Part shown: positions 10,939 to 17,134 of the stretch, piece by piece | Numbering within the stretch: position 1 is the stretch's first letter | Layout: the number at the start of each line of letters is the position of its first letter | DNA from: an uncultured Amylibacter sp. | GTDB lineage: Bacteria; Pseudomonadota; Alphaproteobacteria; Rhodobacterales; Rhodobacteraceae | DNA: 64,000 nt | NCBI GenBank assembly: GCA_943846615.1 | Contig: OX044354.1 | Location: forward strand, 2,311,001 to 2,375,000 | Direction: 5' to 3' | Notes under the pieces: generated by a model | The model's input: only the letters and a program-made list of their open reading frames with translations | What the model was told of the DNA's origin: nothing | Database searches by the model: none | Program-made: the position numbers and the translations under genes

Positions 10939-11685
10939 TTAGCCTCTGTTGCGTTTGACGATGGGGATTGTTGTCGTGCGTGTTTTGAATGTTGGTTCGT
11001 GGGGTGGGTGGTAATGTGCGCGTTGCCAGAATTTCATACCGCCCAGTTTCAACCATGTTGGCATTGTGAAGATGACCCCGACAATAAAGCCGCCTATATG
11101 CGCCCAATAGGCGATACCGCCGCCTGTCGCAGACGAGGCCAATTCGCCGAAGATTTGCAAGCCCATCCAGATGCCAAGAACGATGAACGCGGGCAGGGTG
11201 AAGATGCGAAAAAAGATGACAAGGATGAGGGCGACGTCGACCTTGGCGTTTGGGTAGAGCAGGAGATAACCGCCCATGACGCCCGCGATCGCGCCTGATG
11301 CGCCGACGGTTGGGACGAGGGAGTTGGGATCGGACATCACGTGGAAAGCATCCGCGCCGAGGCCAGAGAGTAGGTAGAAGATGGCGAAGGGGATGTGGCC
11401 CATTGCGTCCTCTATATTATCGCCGAAAATCCATAAAAACAGCATATTGCCAGCGATGTGCATCAGACCGCCGTGTAGAAACATTGAAGTTATGGCGGTG
11501 TGGTATTCTGTGCCTGCGGTGATTTCGGCGGGCACCATCGCCCATGTATCAAAGAAGCCAGCCAGTGCCACACGATCCGCCAAAAGCGGGCTGTACATCG
11601 CGAAGACCACGATGTTGATCGCCATGATTGCCCATGTCACATAAGGTGTGTGGCGTGATGGGTTGTGATCGCGAAATGGGAACAT
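10939..11685 (-). CDS. Rhomboid family intramembrane serine protease
   Basis: A 248-aa membrane protein. The catalytic dyad is visible: Ser130 in VPTVGASGAIAG (GxSG) and His196 in YWAHIGGF. The conserved oxyanion-site segment HGGLMHIAGNMLFLWIFGD carries His76 and Asn80. About six transmembrane segments are present. Rhomboids cleave membrane proteins within or next to their transmembrane helices. I chose the ATG at 11685 (MFPFRDHNPS, a common rhomboid start), with AAAGG seven bases upstream; it lies one base after the zinc-ribbon gene's stop. It is the last gene of the TelA/XpaC/SPFH operon, so single-pass proteins of that operon could be its substrates, though that is inference. Confidence 0.93.
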   Translation of the reverse strand: MFPFRDHNPSRHTPYVTWAIMAINIVVFAMYSPLLADRVALAGFFDTWAMVPAEITAGTEYHTAITSMFLHGGLMHIAGNMLFLWIFGDNIEDAMGHIPFAIFYLLSGLGADAFHVMSDPNSLVPTVGASGAIAGVMGGYLLLYPNAKVDVALILVIFFRIFTLPAFIVLGIWMGLQIFGELASSATGGGIAYWAHIGGFIVGVIFTMPTWLKLGGMKFWQRAHYHPPHEPTFKTRTTTIPIVKRNRG

Positions 11686-11686
11686 G

Positions 11687-12838
11687 TTAGTACCTTTGGA
11701 TAACGAAGCTGCCATTTGATTGGCCCATGGCGAAGAGATAGCCCAATGTGCCTGCGGTGATAAGACCCGCGAGGATGGCGAAGCCGATTTTCCAACGCGA
11801 ATACGGGCGTTCGCCCTGTACCGTGCCTGTGCGTCCGTTCACCACGAAGCGGTATGTTTTGCCGCGGTATTTATAGGCGGCGAGCCAGACAGGCAGCAGA
11901 ACGTGTTTGAAGGTGAGCGTACCGATTTCGGTGTTTACGGATGAGATGCGCTGGCGATCGCCGCCGATGTCGAATTTTACATCGCGTTCGATCATGCGGT
12001 TTACGTATGCGGTTGCCTCGGTGTAGCCATCTTCGAGGGAGACTGTGTAGCCTTCGGCGCGAAAGCCTGCGAGGTATTCGGGTTGATAGGGTTCCATCGC
12101 GGATAGATCCCATGGGGCTAGACCGTCGGTGTATTTTTTCGGGAGGCTGGAAGAAGCCAGCACCAGCACGTCATCGAAGAAGCGGGCGACGCGACCGCGT
12201 ACACCCGACCAGCGGATTTTTTGCACGCGTCTTGTGCGGCGGCGGCGCTGGCCGTTTATGGTGGCGTAGTATGTTTGACTCTCGTAATAAATCGTGCCGC
12301 GTTGGCCGCGATAGGACGACTTTGTGTCGGCATCATATGTCCAGTAGGGGACATATATGCCCTGCATTTTACGGCCTTTGCGTGCGTAGGCGCGCAGGCC
12401 ATTTGGGGCGAACCAGAGTTGGCCAAGCCAATCTGTCATACGGTCACGGGCCTGTTCCTCGGTTAAGCCGAAGGGGAGTAGTCCACGCGGTTTGATTTGG
12501 CGTTCCGTACCCGTTTGGGTGACAACGGGGGTGGCGCAAAAGGGGCATTCTGCGGAATGGGCGTGCTCAAGCATTTCCACATGTGCACCGCAGTTTTCAC
12601 ATGCGAAGGTTTGGAGTTCCGACATTTCGAAATCGGACAGGCCGTCCTTTATCGCCTTGCGAAAGTCGAGTTCGCGGATGGCCGTGCCGCGCCACATGCC
12701 GCCGCCTTCGATGCTTTGCGCATTGCCGCAGTGATCGCATTGCAGCGTGTCCGTGCCCGGAGCATAGCGCAGGTCCGATCCACATGCTTCGCATGGGAAC
12801 CGGTGATCGTGATTGTCCTGCGCGTTGTTGTTTTCCAA
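11687..12838 (-). CDS. Double zinc-ribbon (TFIIB-type) membrane protein, YdjG-like
   Basis: A 383-aa protein with two zinc ribbons at its N-terminus: Cys16/Cys19/Cys34/Cys37 (PCEACG, CDHCGNAQ) and Cys80/Cys83/Cys98/Cys101 (CENCG, CPFCATP). A central conserved beta-rich region includes PYWTYDADTKSSYRGQRGT and an Arg-rich loop, and a C-terminal transmembrane helix (WKIGFAILAGLITAGTLGYLF) ends the protein. The layout resembles Bacillus YdjG, which works with the SPFH protein YdjI in a PspA-linked membrane-stress module. Here the SPFH gene is directly upstream (15 bp) and a rhomboid directly downstream (1 bp). The biochemical role is unknown; membrane-stress partner of the SPFH protein is inference from context. 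Confidence 0.82.
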   Translation of the reverse strand: MENNNAQDNHDHRFPCEACGSDLRYAPGTDTLQCDHCGNAQSIEGGGMWRGTAIRELDFRKAIKDGLSDFEMSELQTFACENCGAHVEMLEHAHSAECPFCATPVVTQTGTERQIKPRGLLPFGLTEEQARDRMTDWLGQLWFAPNGLRAYARKGRKMQGIYVPYWTYDADTKSSYRGQRGTIYYESQTYYATINGQRRRRTRRVQKIRWSGVRGRVARFFDDVLVLASSSLPKKYTDGLAPWDLSAMEPYQPEYLAGFRAEGYTVSLEDGYTEATAYVNRMIERDVKFDIGGDRQRISSVNTEIGTLTFKHVLLPVWLAAYKYRGKTYRFVVNGRTGTVQGERPYSRWKIGFAILAGLITAGTLGYLFAMGQSNGSFVIQRY

Positions 12839-12853
12839 TGGGTTACCTATGGA

Positions 12854-13978
12854 TCAACCTTTGGGAGCGGGGGGTGGTGAAATGGTGAAAAGCGTTGCCA
12901 ATTCATCCAATTCGCCAGCGGTTTTCCAACCGTCCAAGCCAACTGTCCACACGAAGGTATCGCGGGCGATTTTGCCGTCGTCCACCTTGCGTGCCAATTC
13001 CGCGCGTGAATAGGGGCCTGTTGCCTTGCCTTTGACGGCGACATGCCAAACTTTTTCTACGGCGGCATTTGGTGCGGGTGGTGGCATTGCGCCCATTGAT
13101 TGTTCCGGTGCGCGACGACCCCATGGGCCTGTCATCATGCGTTCGGCCATTGCCATGCCCATGCCAGCGCCCATTCCAGCGGCCAAACCGCCGCCGTTTC
13201 CAGGTGTTGCTGCGCCCGTGGTTAAGGCCTCGGCTGTTGAATAATGCGTAAAGTTGCGCAGATCACCGACCATGCCCATGGATGTGCGTTTGTCCAATGC
13301 CGCCTCGACCGCATCAGGAAGGGAAATGTTTTCGATGAACAGGTTTGGAAGCGATATCCCGAATTCCGCCAATTCAGGCGCGATGCGTTGGGACAGGTGT
13401 TTGCCCAATTCTGGTGTGTTTGCCGCCATGTCCAGTACGGGAATGCCGCAGGTGGCGATGGCAGACGAGAAGCGCGAAACAATGACGTTGCGGATTTGGT
13501 AGCTGATTTCGTCTGTGGTGACTTCGCCGTCTGTACCCACGATTTCCGTCATGAATTTAGCAGGGTCAGAGACCTTTACCTCATATGTCCCAAATGCACG
13601 GATGCGCACGGGGCCGAATTCTGGATCGCGACAGATGACAGGGTTTTTCGTGCCCCATTTCAAATCTTGGAAACGAGTGGTGTTTACGAAATAGATTTCA
13701 GATTTAAACGGGCTTTCGAAACCGTGATCCCAGTAATTGAGGGATGTCAGGATCGGCATGTTGTTGGTTTCCAACATGTATAGGCCCGGTGAAAATACAT
13801 CGGCAATTTGGCCTTCGTGGACGAATACAGCCGCTTGGCCTTCGCGTACGGTCAGTTTCGCACCGTATTTGATTTCGTGACCTTCGCGTTCGAACCGCCA
13901 AACCAATGTGTCGTCGGTGTCATCCGTGTGGTGGATGACATCGATTAATTCGCCTTTGATGAAATCTAAAATACCCAT
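12854..13978 (-). CDS. SPFH/Band 7 domain protein with C-terminal GYF_2 domain (YdjI-like)
   Basis: A 374-aa protein. Residues 1-240 form a YdjI-type SPFH domain: MGILDFIKGELIDVIHHTDD, then VREGQAAVFVHEGQIADVF and SLPNLFIENISLPDAVEAAL. A Gly/Ala/Met-rich linker (about 250-300) leads to a GYF_2-like domain (KATGPYSRAELARKVDDGKI ... FVWTVGLDGWKTAGEL). There is no transmembrane helix, so it would be recruited to the membrane through partners. SPFH proteins oligomerise and organise membrane areas; GYF domains bind Pro-rich sequences. It sits 11 bp after telA and 15 bp before the zinc-ribbon gene, the same pairing as ydjI/ydjG in Bacillus. Confidence 0.86.
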   Translation of the reverse strand: MGILDFIKGELIDVIHHTDDTDDTLVWRFEREGHEIKYGAKLTVREGQAAVFVHEGQIADVFSPGLYMLETNNMPILTSLNYWDHGFESPFKSEIYFVNTTRFQDLKWGTKNPVICRDPEFGPVRIRAFGTYEVKVSDPAKFMTEIVGTDGEVTTDEISYQIRNVIVSRFSSAIATCGIPVLDMAANTPELGKHLSQRIAPELAEFGISLPNLFIENISLPDAVEAALDKRTSMGMVGDLRNFTHYSTAEALTTGAATPGNGGGLAAGMGAGMGMAMAERMMTGPWGRRAPEQSMGAMPPPAPNAAVEKVWHVAVKGKATGPYSRAELARKVDDGKIARDTFVWTVGLDGWKTAGELDELATLFTISPPPAPKG

Positions 13979-13989
13979 GTTTTAGCTCC

Positions 13990-15177
13990 TTAAATATCCT
14001 TTGGATCGACAGTGTCGTCCGCCGTTGTTGGCGATGCCTTGGCCGCGGCCAAGGTTTCTTTCAACTTGGCTTCTAGGCCTTCCAGCTCACCTTCTGCGGT
14101 GGCGCGACGGGCTTTGCCTTCGTCGGCGATTGCCAAGCTCTCTTGGATGGTGTCGATCAGGTATTGGTTTGCCTTCTTGATGCTTTCCATATCGAACACA
14201 CCGCGTTCCATTTGTTCGCGTACCATTTTGTTCGCGTCCTTCAGGTTTTCCGCATTGCTCTCCAACAATTCGTTGGTCAGGTCGGTTGCTTCTTTGACGA
14301 CCTTCGCGGCCTCGGTAGAGCGGTGGATTGTTACGGCCTGTGCCAATTGTGTTTCCCACAATGGAACCGTGTTCACCAAGGTAGAGTTGATTTTTGTGAC
14401 CAGTGATTTATCGTTTTCCTGAACCAAACGGATGGATGGTAGGGATTGCATTGTCACCTGACGGGTCAGCTTCAAATCATGTACACGGCGTTCCAGATCA
14501 TCACGGGCGGAACGCATATCACGCAGTTCCTGTGCCATGATAACACCCTTATCTTTGGATGCTTTTTCGACGGCTTTTTCCTTGGCTGGAATTGTTTTCG
14601 CATCCAATTCTGCGATCTTCTTCTCGCCTGCCGCAATGTACAGGGCCAATTCGTCGTAGAAGGCCAGTGTTTTGCCATAGAGTTTATCCAAAGATTTGAT
14701 GTCTTTGAGAAGGATATGTTCGTGATCTAGCAATTCGTCGGTGATTTTGTCGATCTGACCCTGAACAGTTTCATAGCGCGCCATGAATTTTGCGACTGGT
14801 GCTGTGCGACCGATTAGTTTTTCCCACCATGAAAGCGAACGATTTGGGTTCAATTCGTCAACGGAGAAGCCACGGATGGATGTAACCATGTTGCGAAGGC
14901 TTTCGCCTGCGGGGCCGACATCCTTGTTGCGCACGCCTGCCAACATTTCTTGGCTGATGGCCTGTAATTCCGCCTGTGCGCCGGAGCCAAATCCGATGAT
15001 GGATTGGGTGTTTGTGATGTCGATTTCCTTCATGCGGGCGTTGATTGCACGCGTCATGCCGGGTTTTACATCATCCAAAACGATCAATGCGCCTGTTGGT
15101 TCTGGCAAAACAGCCGCCGTTACTTCTTGGACTTCTTTCAATGCAGATTCTGCTTTCTTGCGGATTTCTTCGGCCAT
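13990..15177 (-). CDS. TelA family (toxic anion resistance) protein
   Basis: A 395-aa, largely helical protein matching the TelA/KlaA family: a long charged alpha-helical body with LSWWEKLIGRTAPVAKFMAR, LDKLYGKTLAFYDELALYIA and the conserved C-terminal VPLWETQLAQAVTIHRS followed by NAENLKDANKMVREQMERG. Coiled-coil segments are likely at about 135-270. Plasmid TelA was linked to tellurite resistance, but chromosomal homologs are better viewed as envelope-stress proteins of unknown mechanism. It lies 19 bp downstream of the XpaC-like gene and 11 bp upstream of the SPFH gene. No transmembrane segment is evident. Confidence 0.9.
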   Translation of the reverse strand: MAEEIRKKAESALKEVQEVTAAVLPEPTGALIVLDDVKPGMTRAINARMKEIDITNTQSIIGFGSGAQAELQAISQEMLAGVRNKDVGPAGESLRNMVTSIRGFSVDELNPNRSLSWWEKLIGRTAPVAKFMARYETVQGQIDKITDELLDHEHILLKDIKSLDKLYGKTLAFYDELALYIAAGEKKIAELDAKTIPAKEKAVEKASKDKGVIMAQELRDMRSARDDLERRVHDLKLTRQVTMQSLPSIRLVQENDKSLVTKINSTLVNTVPLWETQLAQAVTIHRSTEAAKVVKEATDLTNELLESNAENLKDANKMVREQMERGVFDMESIKKANQYLIDTIQESLAIADEGKARRATAEGELEGLEAKLKETLAAAKASPTTADDTVDPKDI

Positions 15178-15196
15178 GGGGCACTCCTTGTTTAAA

Positions 15197-16111
15197 TTAA
15201 TTGCGGGCTTTGACGCCCTCTTGTTTCAATCGGTCGCGCAGAACTTCGATTTCAACGTCGAGGTCTGTGCGATCATCCAGCAACATCACTTCGCTTTGGG
15301 TCGCGAATGTTGCTTCTAAATCGGTCAGTAGGTTTTCGTAATCTGTACGGGCGGCTGTATCGCGTTTTTTTGCGTAAAGGTCGGCGAATTTAACCGTCGC
15401 ATCGCGCGCACCCTTTAAATACACGCCCATGAATTTGCGTGCGCCTGTTAGGTCGCGCGGATCTTCTTCGACGGCGCGAAACATTTTGCGCGCGTTTGCG
15501 GCCATGCTCTCTACGCGGCCTTCGAGTTTGCGATCATTAAAGCGTTTTGAGGCGGTGATTGTGTCGTTTAATAATGCTTCGGCCTTATCCACTGCCTTGG
15601 CGACGCGTTGGGCATCGAATTCGGACAGACCTTCCATACCCTTTTTCTGCATCGGATCCATGCCGAAGCTGAAGATATGGGCGGCGGATGCGATGGCGCC
15701 GAACATGATAGACGGGAACAGGGTTTGCCCCCAGCCAAGATGCGCGGCGGTTGCGACGCCAAGACCCGTTAGGATCGTTGCGAAGAGTTTGCGCGGAATT
15801 GCAGGTGGGCGCGCCACCTTGCGGGCGTTGTACGCATCTTCGGCGCTAAGACCGTCACGTAAGAGCCATGCCGCCAAGATTAGGAGTATGAATGCGCCCA
15901 GTTCGCCCAGCATGCCGTTGGCGTCGCCAACGCGCAATTCGCCGATGGCAGCGAAGAGTAGGGGGATGGGAACAAGGAAGAGGAGTTTGGCGCGGATATT
16001 GGAATTATACGCCTTTTGTCCGCGAAAACGATTTACCTGTGTTTCAATACCATCACGGGCGTTGTCAGGTGACCCATCGGGGCTGAATTTTCCACCGTAT
16101 TTTTTAGCCAT
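15197..16111 (-). CDS. XpaC-like (5-bromo-4-chloroindolyl phosphate hydrolysis family) membrane protein
   Basis: A 304-aa protein with two pairs of hydrophobic segments in the N-terminal half (KLLFLVPIPLLFAAIGEL; GELGAFILLILAAWLL; KLFATILTGLGVATAAHLG; SIMFGAIASAAHIFSFG), then a cytosolic helical domain from about residue 145 to the end. This matches the XpaC family, usually encoded beside telA as seen here. The name comes from a colony phenotype; the molecular role is unknown. I chose the ATG at 16111 (MAKKYGGKFSPDG). It overlaps by one base (TAATG) the stop of a 29-codon open frame upstream, so the two are coupled. A longer in-frame start at 16210 is rejected for that reason. Confidence 0.84.
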   Translation of the reverse strand: MAKKYGGKFSPDGSPDNARDGIETQVNRFRGQKAYNSNIRAKLLFLVPIPLLFAAIGELRVGDANGMLGELGAFILLILAAWLLRDGLSAEDAYNARKVARPPAIPRKLFATILTGLGVATAAHLGWGQTLFPSIMFGAIASAAHIFSFGMDPMQKKGMEGLSEFDAQRVAKAVDKAEALLNDTITASKRFNDRKLEGRVESMAANARKMFRAVEEDPRDLTGARKFMGVYLKGARDATVKFADLYAKKRDTAARTDYENLLTDLEATFATQSEVMLLDDRTDLDVEIEVLRDRLKQEGVKARN

Positions 16112-16200
16112 TAGGACACACCCAATGCGCCAAAAGACACATACCATATGACAGCGACCAGAACGAAATAGGCCAACCAGTTGAGGTTCGAAGAATTCAT
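16111..16200 (-). CDS. Predicted 29-aa single-pass membrane peptide
   Basis: A short open frame of 29 codons, ATG at 16200 to TAA at 16111-16113. It reads MNSSNLNWLAYFVLVAVIWY then VSFGALGVS: a polar N-terminus, a hydrophobic helix of about 20 residues (8-27) and a very short tail, a typical small membrane protein. GGGG lies four bases before the ATG. Its stop overlaps the XpaC start in TAATG form, indicating translational coupling at the head of the telA/SPFH operon. No sequence family is recognised; a role as a regulator or assembly factor for the membrane proteins encoded downstream is inference. It is easily missed because of its size. Confidence 0.6.
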   Translation of the reverse strand: MNSSNLNWLAYFVLVAVIWYVSFGALGVS

Positions 16201-16248
16201 TTTTCCCCACAGAAAAATTTAGCAGACAGTATCAATATATAAAAGAAA

Positions 16249-16270
16249 CCTCCCGTTACTAGACGGGAGG
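16249..16270 (-). terminator. Rho-independent terminator downstream of the TerC gene
   Basis: CCTCCCGT-TACTAG-ACGGGAGG forms a perfect 8-bp stem with a 6-nt loop. On the minus strand it is followed by TTTCTTTTATATA, a T-rich tract, and it lies 40-60 bp after the TerC stop. It separates TerC from the XpaC/TelA operon on the same strand. Confidence 0.85.
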
Positions 16271-16309
16271 CTGTATTTATTTGCAAGTTTTTAAGTGTAT
16301 TGCCTGAAA

Positions 16310-17134
16310 TCAGTGCGGTTTTTGCTCGTGTGCACGTTCGGCGGCCAATTTGCGTTGGTAGCCTGATTGCACCAATTCCACGATGACCAGAACAACAACA
16401 GAGAAGTAGAATGTCGATTTCGACATTGGGATCAACTCATAACCGAAAATGTGGATTAGCAAGCTGTCATCGTGCATTGCGTGCGCGGCGGCTGGGCCTG
16501 CCTCGCCCAACAAGACAACACCGACGATGAGTAGGATGAACAGGCCGAGAACCTCGTACATGCGGTTTTTCTTTAGGAACTCTGTTACACCATCGGCCAG
16601 CAGAACCATTGCAACGCCAGAGGACAAAATCGCGATAGCCAAAACGATGAATACATCCGTGATCGCCAAGGCGGACAGGATTGAATCGAAGCTGAAAACA
16701 AGGTTCATCATTACGATCATCATCACCACTTGGGCCGCGGATTTACCGCCCTTTTTGTGTTCTGGATCGTTTTCAAGGTGTTCCATGGACAACATGTGGC
16801 TGATTTCCTTAAACGCTGTGTACATGATGAAAATACCACCGATGACGAACACGCAGGTCGAGAAATTGACCCCACCTGTTAAAATGCCGGGGAAATCGAA
16901 GATGTGGAACGGTTCCTTCATCAGGTCGATCAGTTGGATCATTACGAAGAGAAGCACGACGCGTAGCACCACAGCGATGATGATGCCCCAGAAACGCACG
17001 CGTTTTTGTACCGCTTCGGGTGCGCGTTGTGATTCGATAGAGATGTAGAGAAGGTTATCAAAGCCAAGAACGGCCTGAAGAAAGATAAGAACTGCAAGGT
17101 TACCCAAGTTCTCGAAAGTAAATAAATCAGCCAT
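16310..17134 (-). CDS. TerC family integral membrane protein
   Basis: A 274-aa protein with seven or so transmembrane segments and the two TerC signatures: LQAVLGFDNLLYISIES (residues about 20-36) and LVFSFDSILSALAIT, each with an acidic residue in the membrane. It ends in a charged tail with His residues (AERAHEQKPH). TerC/Alx family members are implicated in manganese export and in metal insertion at the membrane, and in Ter-type stress responses. A terminator follows it, so it is transcribed separately, but it lies directly upstream of the TelA/XpaC operon. TerC and TelA co-occur in many genomes. Confidence 0.93.
   Translation of the reverse strand: MADLFTFENLGNLAVLIFLQAVLGFDNLLYISIESQRAPEAVQKRVRFWGIIIAVVLRVVLLFVMIQLIDLMKEPFHIFDFPGILTGGVNFSTCVFVIGGIFIMYTAFKEISHMLSMEHLENDPEHKKGGKSAAQVVMMIVMMNLVFSFDSILSALAITDVFIVLAIAILSSGVAMVLLADGVTEFLKKNRMYEVLGLFILLIVGVVLLGEAGPAAAHAMHDDSLLIHIFGYELIPMSKSTFYFSVVVLVIVELVQSGYQRKLAAERAHEQKPH

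Follow-up and report, generated by a model that had tools for sequence, protein, structure and literature searches.

The closest described relatives of the locus considered here include operons of Bacillus subtilis. Its pspA-ydjG-ydjH-ydjI operon encodes a span-less SPFH protein together with a double zinc-ribbon membrane protein (PMC8581546, PMC11237479); there YdjI and PspA are reported to form membrane foci only when YdjG and YdjH are present, and cells deleted for YdjI to have a less fluid membrane (PMC8581546). The published sigma-W regulon lists pspA-ydjGHI along with xpaC-yaaN and yceC-H (PMC3498285). Adjacent genes of the XpaC and TelA kinds, in the same order as in our locus and likened to it by description, are B. 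subtilis xpaC-yaaN, Listeria lmo1966-1967 and Lactococcus lactis llmg_1115-1116 (PMC3498285, PMC12791056, PMC3139573). In Listeria, the susceptibility of a telA-type mutant is reported to be raised 4-fold for nisin and 2-fold for tellurite (PMC12791056), and the L. lactis XpaC-type and telA1 genes stand at 10.3 and 3.4 in the transcriptomic-response table of a paper on membrane-protein overproduction (PMC3139573). Here we describe an operon in a 64,000-nucleotide stretch from an uncultured Amylibacter sp. of the Rhodobacteraceae (assembly GCA_943846615.1, contig OX044354.1, positions 2,311,001 to 2,375,000; hereafter the window), in which an XpaC-TelA pair is joined to an SPFH gene and a double zinc-ribbon (ZnR) gene of the YdjI/YdjG type. 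Reasoning by analogy with the systems above, we lean towards reading it as a conserved, PspA-independent envelope-stress module of alphaproteobacteria.

All six minus-strand open reading frames (ORFs) listed in the preliminary description of this DNA are present, with successive gaps of -1, 19, 11, 15 and 1 bp (Table 1). The clear terminator claimed there corresponds to a strong terminator-like hairpin between TerC and the first peptide (16272-16247), which is the strongest of the 14 sites that a terminator scan gave for the region, 10.5 being expected; sites of this kind are thus nothing unusual in themselves. XpaC most likely starts at 16111 (304 amino acids, aa) rather than at the GTG at 16210 (337 aa), and the rhomboid at 11685, where relatives show MFP(I/F)RDHNPS, rather than at 11715. 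PspA had been described as absent, and a search of the whole source genome indeed gave no match to PF04012, while 9 of 14 control genomes were positive; XpaC and TelA stand in the operon instead. The absence of a YdjH-type protein holds for the operon only: the Pfam scan found no TPM domain among its proteins, but there is one elsewhere in the source genome, at C1:395185. No PADLOC model for anti-phage defence matches the five larger proteins of the operon.

Table 1. Features of the operon and its immediate surroundings, in window coordinates
Feature	Position	Strand	Remarks
Single-span membrane microprotein, 29 aa (predicted)	16111..16200	-	stop codon overlaps XpaC start
XpaC family protein, 304 aa, two predicted membrane spans	15197..16111	-	Pfam PF10112, E 3e-29
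TelA family protein, 395 aa	13990..15177	-	Pfam PF05816, E 1.8e-108
SPFH (Band_7_1) protein with C-terminal GYF domain and proline-rich tail, 374 aa	12854..13978	-	PF13421, PF14237
Double zinc-ribbon protein (ZnR), 383 aa, 8 Cys, long beta-strand domain, C-terminal span	11687..12838	-	
Rhomboid protease, motifs GASG and AHIGG, clade-specific addition to the operon	10939..11685	-	PF01694, E 5.6e-32
Terminator-like hairpin separating TerC from the operon	16247..16272	-	10-pair stem, T-rich tail
Candidate promoter CTAG-N18-ATATATTG	16233..16262	-	read by eye; overlaps TerC terminator
TerC family gene, neighbour outside the unit	16310..17134	-	Pfam PF03741, E 4.9e-38

Judged by gene order, XpaC-TelA-SPFH-ZnR is the true core of the operon and is conserved well beyond the source genome. 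In a sample of the order (149 genomes, all labelled Rhodobacteraceae; G and L numbers are our labels for genomes and loci), TelA was matched in 147 genomes, weakly so in G085. Neighbours were mapped by tblastn at 80 TelA loci from 80 genomes and 71 genera, a procedure that saw only homologues of the named query proteins. On the TelA strand there were XpaC at 76 loci, SPFH at 76, a DUF2927 gene at 75 and ZnR at 70, followed by an RluB-type pseudouridine synthase (66), Dtd (53), a PfkB kinase (38), TerC and a nitroreductase (18 each), cytochrome b561 (17) and rhomboid (2). The preliminary description had claimed a conserved unit and had named rare co-occurrence as what would speak against it; among the 74 loci that extend 3 kb or more before TelA and 6 kb or more after it, all four core genes occur in the same order at 66. 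Profile search confirmed the eight exceptions. Three of them (L040, L105 and L107) have no XpaC, at two (L041 and L049) ZnR is out of reach of the locus and located elsewhere in the genome, and at three (L076, L086, L089) the SPFH-ZnR pair is out of reach, being elsewhere in two of the genomes and not found in the third. A second sample, of 80 named ZnR-centred loci, several of them short and all containing ZnR by construction, gave SPFH at 75, XpaC at 72, TelA at 72, DUF2927 at 68, TerC at 33 and rhomboid at 8; two of its loci, L128 and L129, appear to repeat G008 and G142. We also searched 10 genomes with SPFH and ZnR profiles, and as these were chosen as mostly unusual, the counts are not frequencies: four genomes (G011, G106, G085 and G081) lack both genes, and the remaining six have both. 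By such profile and neighbourhood evidence SPFH and ZnR are usually adjacent, and they are jointly present or absent in every genome checked for both.

The arrangement extends to other families. When the class was scanned with the ZnR profile, 20 of 385 genomes gave a match, 5 of them in the family, 10 strong ones outside it and 5 weak ones (G178, G313, G337, G398, G449), the last being dropped before the counts that follow. At the 11 loci of the 10 strong non-family genomes we found XpaC-TelA-SPFH-ZnR in 7, SPFH-ZnR in 3 and ZnR alone in 1, with no match to DUF2927, TerC or rhomboid. Among genomes of other families, TelA and ZnR occur together more often than chance predicts (9 genomes with both, 8 with TelA only, 1 with ZnR only and 362 with neither gene; Fisher p 6e-13, not corrected for phylogeny and with the five weak ZnR matches taken as absent), and in two of the nine genomes with both (G295 and G472) they lie on different contigs. 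A phylum-wide scan matched 52 of 398 genomes, from which 14 strong out-of-class loci were taken and 11 weaker genomes (five at about E 1e-10, six at about 1e-4) left out. SPFH comes directly before ZnR at 13 of the 14 (at L222 as seen by a profile on stop-to-stop frames, at L220 with about 500 bp between the genes), and at the remaining one, L223, the contig ends 34 bases before ZnR; for XpaC and TelA no match was reported at these 14 loci. Among 12 plasmid records with a ZnR homologue, all five inspected (Vibrio, Comamonas, Tsukamurella, Enterococcus, Paracoccus) have SPFH directly 5' of ZnR, the Paracoccus plasmid in the order TelA-DUF2927-SPFH-ZnR with XpaC not listed. In Enterococcus gallinarum the ZnR homologue, to which the window ZnR is 26% identical at 92% coverage (E 8e-27), sits between SPFH and TPM genes. 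SPFH-ZnR adjacency spans Pseudomonadota, Actinomycetota and Bacillota, and on this distribution the pair is the oldest part of the operon. Read from gene order, the cluster is built from two units, XpaC-TelA and SPFH-ZnR, with a predicted microprotein at its head in Rhodobacteraceae.

The parallel that the preliminary description drew between the SPFH/zinc-ribbon pair and YdjI/YdjG gains from the Enterococcus gallinarum homologue beside SPFH and TPM genes, a comparison made with that protein and not with YdjG itself. The window differs from pspA-ydjGHI in that its genome is without PspA, its TPM gene is outside the operon, its gene order is SPFH-ZnR, and its SPFH protein has a GYF domain where YdjI has a C-terminal zinc finger. 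In the window the PF10112 and PF05816 genes stand in tandem, XpaC then TelA. The XpaC-TelA pairs known elsewhere are named without an SPFH or ZnR gene in the parts of the sources that treat them, whereas the window pair is joined to SPFH-ZnR and preceded by a microprotein. Since both types of unit are under sigma-W control in Bacillus, the window operon joins two units that answer one sigma factor there. The yceC-yceH operon, in which we take yceF to be of the TerC type and yceH of the TelA type, likewise has such genes close together, but TerC is optional at our locus and apparently terminated separately. The phage shock protein (PSP) neighbourhoods of Ravi et al. 2024 include Band-7 and zinc-ribbon partners of PspA in sub-membrane assembly systems; unlike in our operon, TelA and XpaC are absent from the main text of that work (PMC11237479). 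We found no open-licence paper that has TelA, XpaC and SPFH together or describes the operon, and an earlier description elsewhere is possible.

Several properties of the four core proteins bear on what they may do. The Pfam assignment of XpaC is Halogen_Hydrol (PF10112), which we take to be the XpaC family, and a simple hydropathy scan places its predicted spans at residues 43-61 and 66-84. TelA is without a predicted membrane span and its structure model is all-helical at low confidence (predicted local distance difference test, pLDDT, 66); the fold search, in which likeness to PspA/ESCRT-III was tested on this low-confidence model, returned long-helix proteins and no match below E 1e-3. The SPFH protein carries Band_7_1 (E 8.3e-100) and GYF_2 (E 1.1e-17) domains and no predicted span, and its prolines 300, 301, 368, 369, 370 and 372 are invariant in all 25 aligned sequences, as are ZnR cysteines 16, 19, 34, 37, 80, 83, 98 and 101. 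ZnR stays under every Pfam cut-off (best DZR, 20 bits versus 27.3) and has its predicted C-terminal span at residues 351-369. YdjG is reported to have a YpeB/NTF2-like domain (PMC11237479); the ZnR model, compared for the same fold behind its zinc ribbons, has very long strands (pLDDT 82) and gave no Foldseek match below E 1e-3 and a best VIA-align Z of 4.0, which does not imply a new fold. Among solved structures nothing convincing was found for ZnR, TelA or XpaC, and the only match for the SPFH protein is the C-terminal GYF-type domain of a gliding-motility protein. The nearest named relatives of ZnR are those of Amylibacter kogurei and A. ulvae. A second, divergent ZnR paralogue is present in the source genome (L208, G000:C1:725618-726619), adjoining glutamate-dehydrogenase-type and Cys/Met-metabolism genes, and a similar paralogue is seen at L236 near a spermidine-synthase gene.

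The peptide ahead of XpaC, predicted from sequence, is very likely a translated gene. A strict search (ATG start, 20-45 aa, hydrophobic, end within -10 to +5 of the XpaC start) found such an ORF at 65 of the 76 loci with XpaC, as against 0 of 437 starts of eight other locus genes and 6 of 4000 random positions. A loose search raised this to 75 of 76, a figure that includes doubtful cases (L038, L086 and L096 among them) and longer two-span forms. Over 13 close pairs, which are not independent, the ratio of nonsynonymous to synonymous differences (pN/pS) is 0.34 in frame versus 1.27 and 2.51 in the other frames. It is from the conserved position and the in-frame coding pattern that we take the microprotein to be translated; the preliminary description had listed it as a gene without evidence, and that status is now backed by conservation and the substitution pattern. 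The protein has one predicted span, at residues 10-28, and no match in Pfam or NCBIfam, the two family libraries scanned. Family-wide it is typically single-span and 25-30 aa long, with the two-span forms occurring in some genera. The outgroup, whose small ORFs were left out of these counts, has seven loci with XpaC: one (L219) shows a faintly similar small ORF, two (L209 and L217) have unlike hydrophobic ORFs, and the others have none.

Upstream of the operon, part of the family has a cis-element. Enriched words in 51 upstream regions gave TTCCCCCTAG-N18-CCTA, whose profile is promoter-like and contains a TTCCCCC box that is conserved. In the 1.49 Mb of DNA from the loci there are 19 copies of TCCCCCTAG, and 17 of these lie within 400 bp upstream of XpaC. 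Genome-wide, TTCCCCCTAG-N18-CHTA is found in 42 of the 149 genomes, belonging to 21 of 72 genera, once in each. Thirty-six of these copies lie on the TelA strand 1018-1104 bp before TelA, just upstream of the operon, and six lie elsewhere (G030, G025, G026, G061, G095, G126); the reversed control pattern gave 7 hits in all. Since these same loci supplied the pattern, finding it at them is to some extent built in; looser sites at other genes would escape a search for an exact pattern, so that a wider regulon is possible. CTAG-N18-ATATATTG in the window, an arrangement that recurs in L032 and L034, is at most a weak counterpart of the element in other genera. A sigma-70 scan was uninformative (7 sites, 6.4 expected), and the candidate promoter of the window is not among its sites.

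If the operon is an envelope-stress module, it could work as follows. ZnR, anchored by its C-terminal span, would help to bring the soluble SPFH protein to the membrane, the role that YdjG and YdjH jointly play for YdjI, and the SPFH protein would assemble there. GYF domains bind proline-rich sequence; the ligand of the one in the SPFH protein may be the proline-rich tail of an adjacent subunit or of a partner. Onto this platform soluble, helical TelA and membrane-bound XpaC would be loaded, taking the place that belongs to PspA in the Bacillus system. The microprotein, whose gene directly precedes that of XpaC and shares stop and start with it by overlap, would most likely be a small subunit or regulator of XpaC. 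The inner membrane would thereby be protected against perturbing agents, and rhomboid and TerC would be dispensable. A bolder version, possible but in our view doubtful, is a PspA-free membrane-repair machine, in which the ZnR-anchored SPFH scaffold loads TelA-XpaC instead of an ESCRT-III-type protein, the microprotein acts as a gate, the promoter element switches the machine on in part of the family, and in Amylibacter a relocated rhomboid adds one more cleavage step.

A number of observations weigh against the module. In B. subtilis, two-hybrid contact with YdjI and PspA was reported for YdjH, the TPM-type protein, and not for YdjG (PMC8581546). As the operon has no TPM gene, direct contact between ZnR and SPFH is a guess; as the TelA model is of low confidence and found no match at the threshold, we do not claim structural likeness of TelA to PspA. 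The genes are also not always together. L040, L105 and L107, all from one genus, have TelA-SPFH-ZnR without XpaC, even by profile, and G081 has XpaC-TelA-DUF2927 without SPFH-ZnR. The SPFH-ZnR pair stays together on a different contig from TelA in G124 and about 13 kb from TelA in G110, ZnR and TelA sit on different contigs in G007, and G009 and G021 keep SPFH by TelA with ZnR far away. Finally, the promoter-like element is absent from 107 of the 149 genomes, the source genome included. In view of the contacts reported for YdjH, and of G009 and G021 with their separated SPFH and ZnR genes, we hold the module reading less firmly.

An alternative is that the locus confers resistance to metals or to toxic anions of the tellurite type; TelA, XpaC and TerC would then do the work, and SPFH-ZnR would be accessory. 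The TelA and TerC families bear that name, the Listeria telA-type mutant is affected by tellurite (PMC12791056), and TerC, as the preliminary description rightly said, lies just upstream in the window. TerC is, however, a variable same-strand neighbour (18 of 80 TelA-centred and 33 of 80 ZnR-centred loci), so that it is missing at most loci of both samples; it was not found at the 11 non-family loci, in the window the terminator-like hairpin sets it apart, and the same Listeria mutant is more strongly sensitised to nisin (PMC12791056). With its variable presence and its place beyond the terminator-like hairpin, TerC was rejected as a core component, and we regard the resistance locus as rather unlikely. 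It is also conceivable, if improbable, that the neighbourhood is a loose one, in which adjacency has been kept by descent within the family and the halves share no function. The halves do lie apart in several genomes, and unrelated-looking neighbours are frequent as well, with the RluB type at 66, Dtd at 53 and PfkB at 38 of the 80 TelA loci. Yet the same four genes recur in the same order at 7 of 11 ZnR loci in other families, and in G106, where TelA, SPFH and ZnR were not found in the genome and XpaC not at the locus, RluB, DUF2927, PfkB and Dtd remain.

The preliminary description had included the rhomboid as a part of the system, and a reading in which intramembrane cleavage is the output that signals membrane damage would build on the gap of 1 bp between ZnR and rhomboid in the window. 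Active rhomboids have a catalytic Ser in a GxSG motif and a His in a late membrane segment; the window protein, a PF01694 member, shows this pattern, with GASG at residue 138 and AHIGG at 205 of the 258-aa ORF. The two genes adjoin directly in the window, A. kogurei, A. ulvae, Amylibacter sp. SFDW26, an Amylibacter metagenome-assembled genome (MAG) and the MAGs L133 and L134, the MAGs being grouped with Amylibacter by ZnR identity, and apparently also in G064, whose assembly breaks between SPFH, at the end of one contig, and ZnR-rhomboid, at the start of the next. Slightly looser arrangements occur in L135, with the rhomboid about 2.1 kb after ZnR, and in L188 (Thalassobius vesicularis), where it follows Dtd 2.4 kb past ZnR. 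Against this stands the distribution in the family: a rhomboid match exists in 140 of the 149 genomes, in 134 of them with E below 1e-60, and in a hand-picked set of 44 genomes where rhomboid and TelA share a contig, it lies less than 10 kb from TelA in 3 and more than 20 kb away in 41. As a family-wide gene usually located elsewhere, the rhomboid was rejected as a core component; by its genomic position it is a local addition in Amylibacter and a few close relatives, and a system that includes it seems to us very improbable. What remains of the self-contained membrane surveillance system proposed earlier is the conserved four-gene unit, with rhomboid and TerC outside it.

In most relatives a DUF2927 gene lies between TelA and SPFH (75 of 80 TelA loci). 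It is missing from the window locus, and the source genome has two DUF2927 matches elsewhere, one strong and one below the cut-off. The idea of a protease swap, DUF2927 for rhomboid, was rejected as a strict rule: L130, L131, L134 and L135 have both genes and L132 has neither, so rhomboid gain and DUF2927 loss do not go together. At L033, L109 and other loci the DUF2927 protein appears to be a lipoprotein with an HEExAQ-type motif, seen by eye. No literature on DUF2927 was found in open-licence papers. The microprotein, the cis-element and the DUF2927 gene in most relatives are new relative to the preliminary description.

We know of no mechanistic account of the TelA and XpaC families, and their names may mislead. 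A fixed-order combination of TelA/XpaC with SPFH-ZnR, near-universal in an abundant marine family and with a microprotein in front, offers a concrete system in which to test their roles. The operon also suggests that PspA is not the only kind of partner that an SPFH scaffold can serve.

Outside the class, lipid-related genes are seen to flank SPFH-ZnR pairs: at L224 a gene for a lysylphosphatidylglycerol-synthase-type membrane protein follows ZnR, and at L220 a CDP-alcohol phosphatidyltransferase gene precedes SPFH. On the Vibrio coralliilyticus plasmid (L270), a TIR-domain gene lies about 3 kb from the SPFH-ZnR pair, on the opposite strand.

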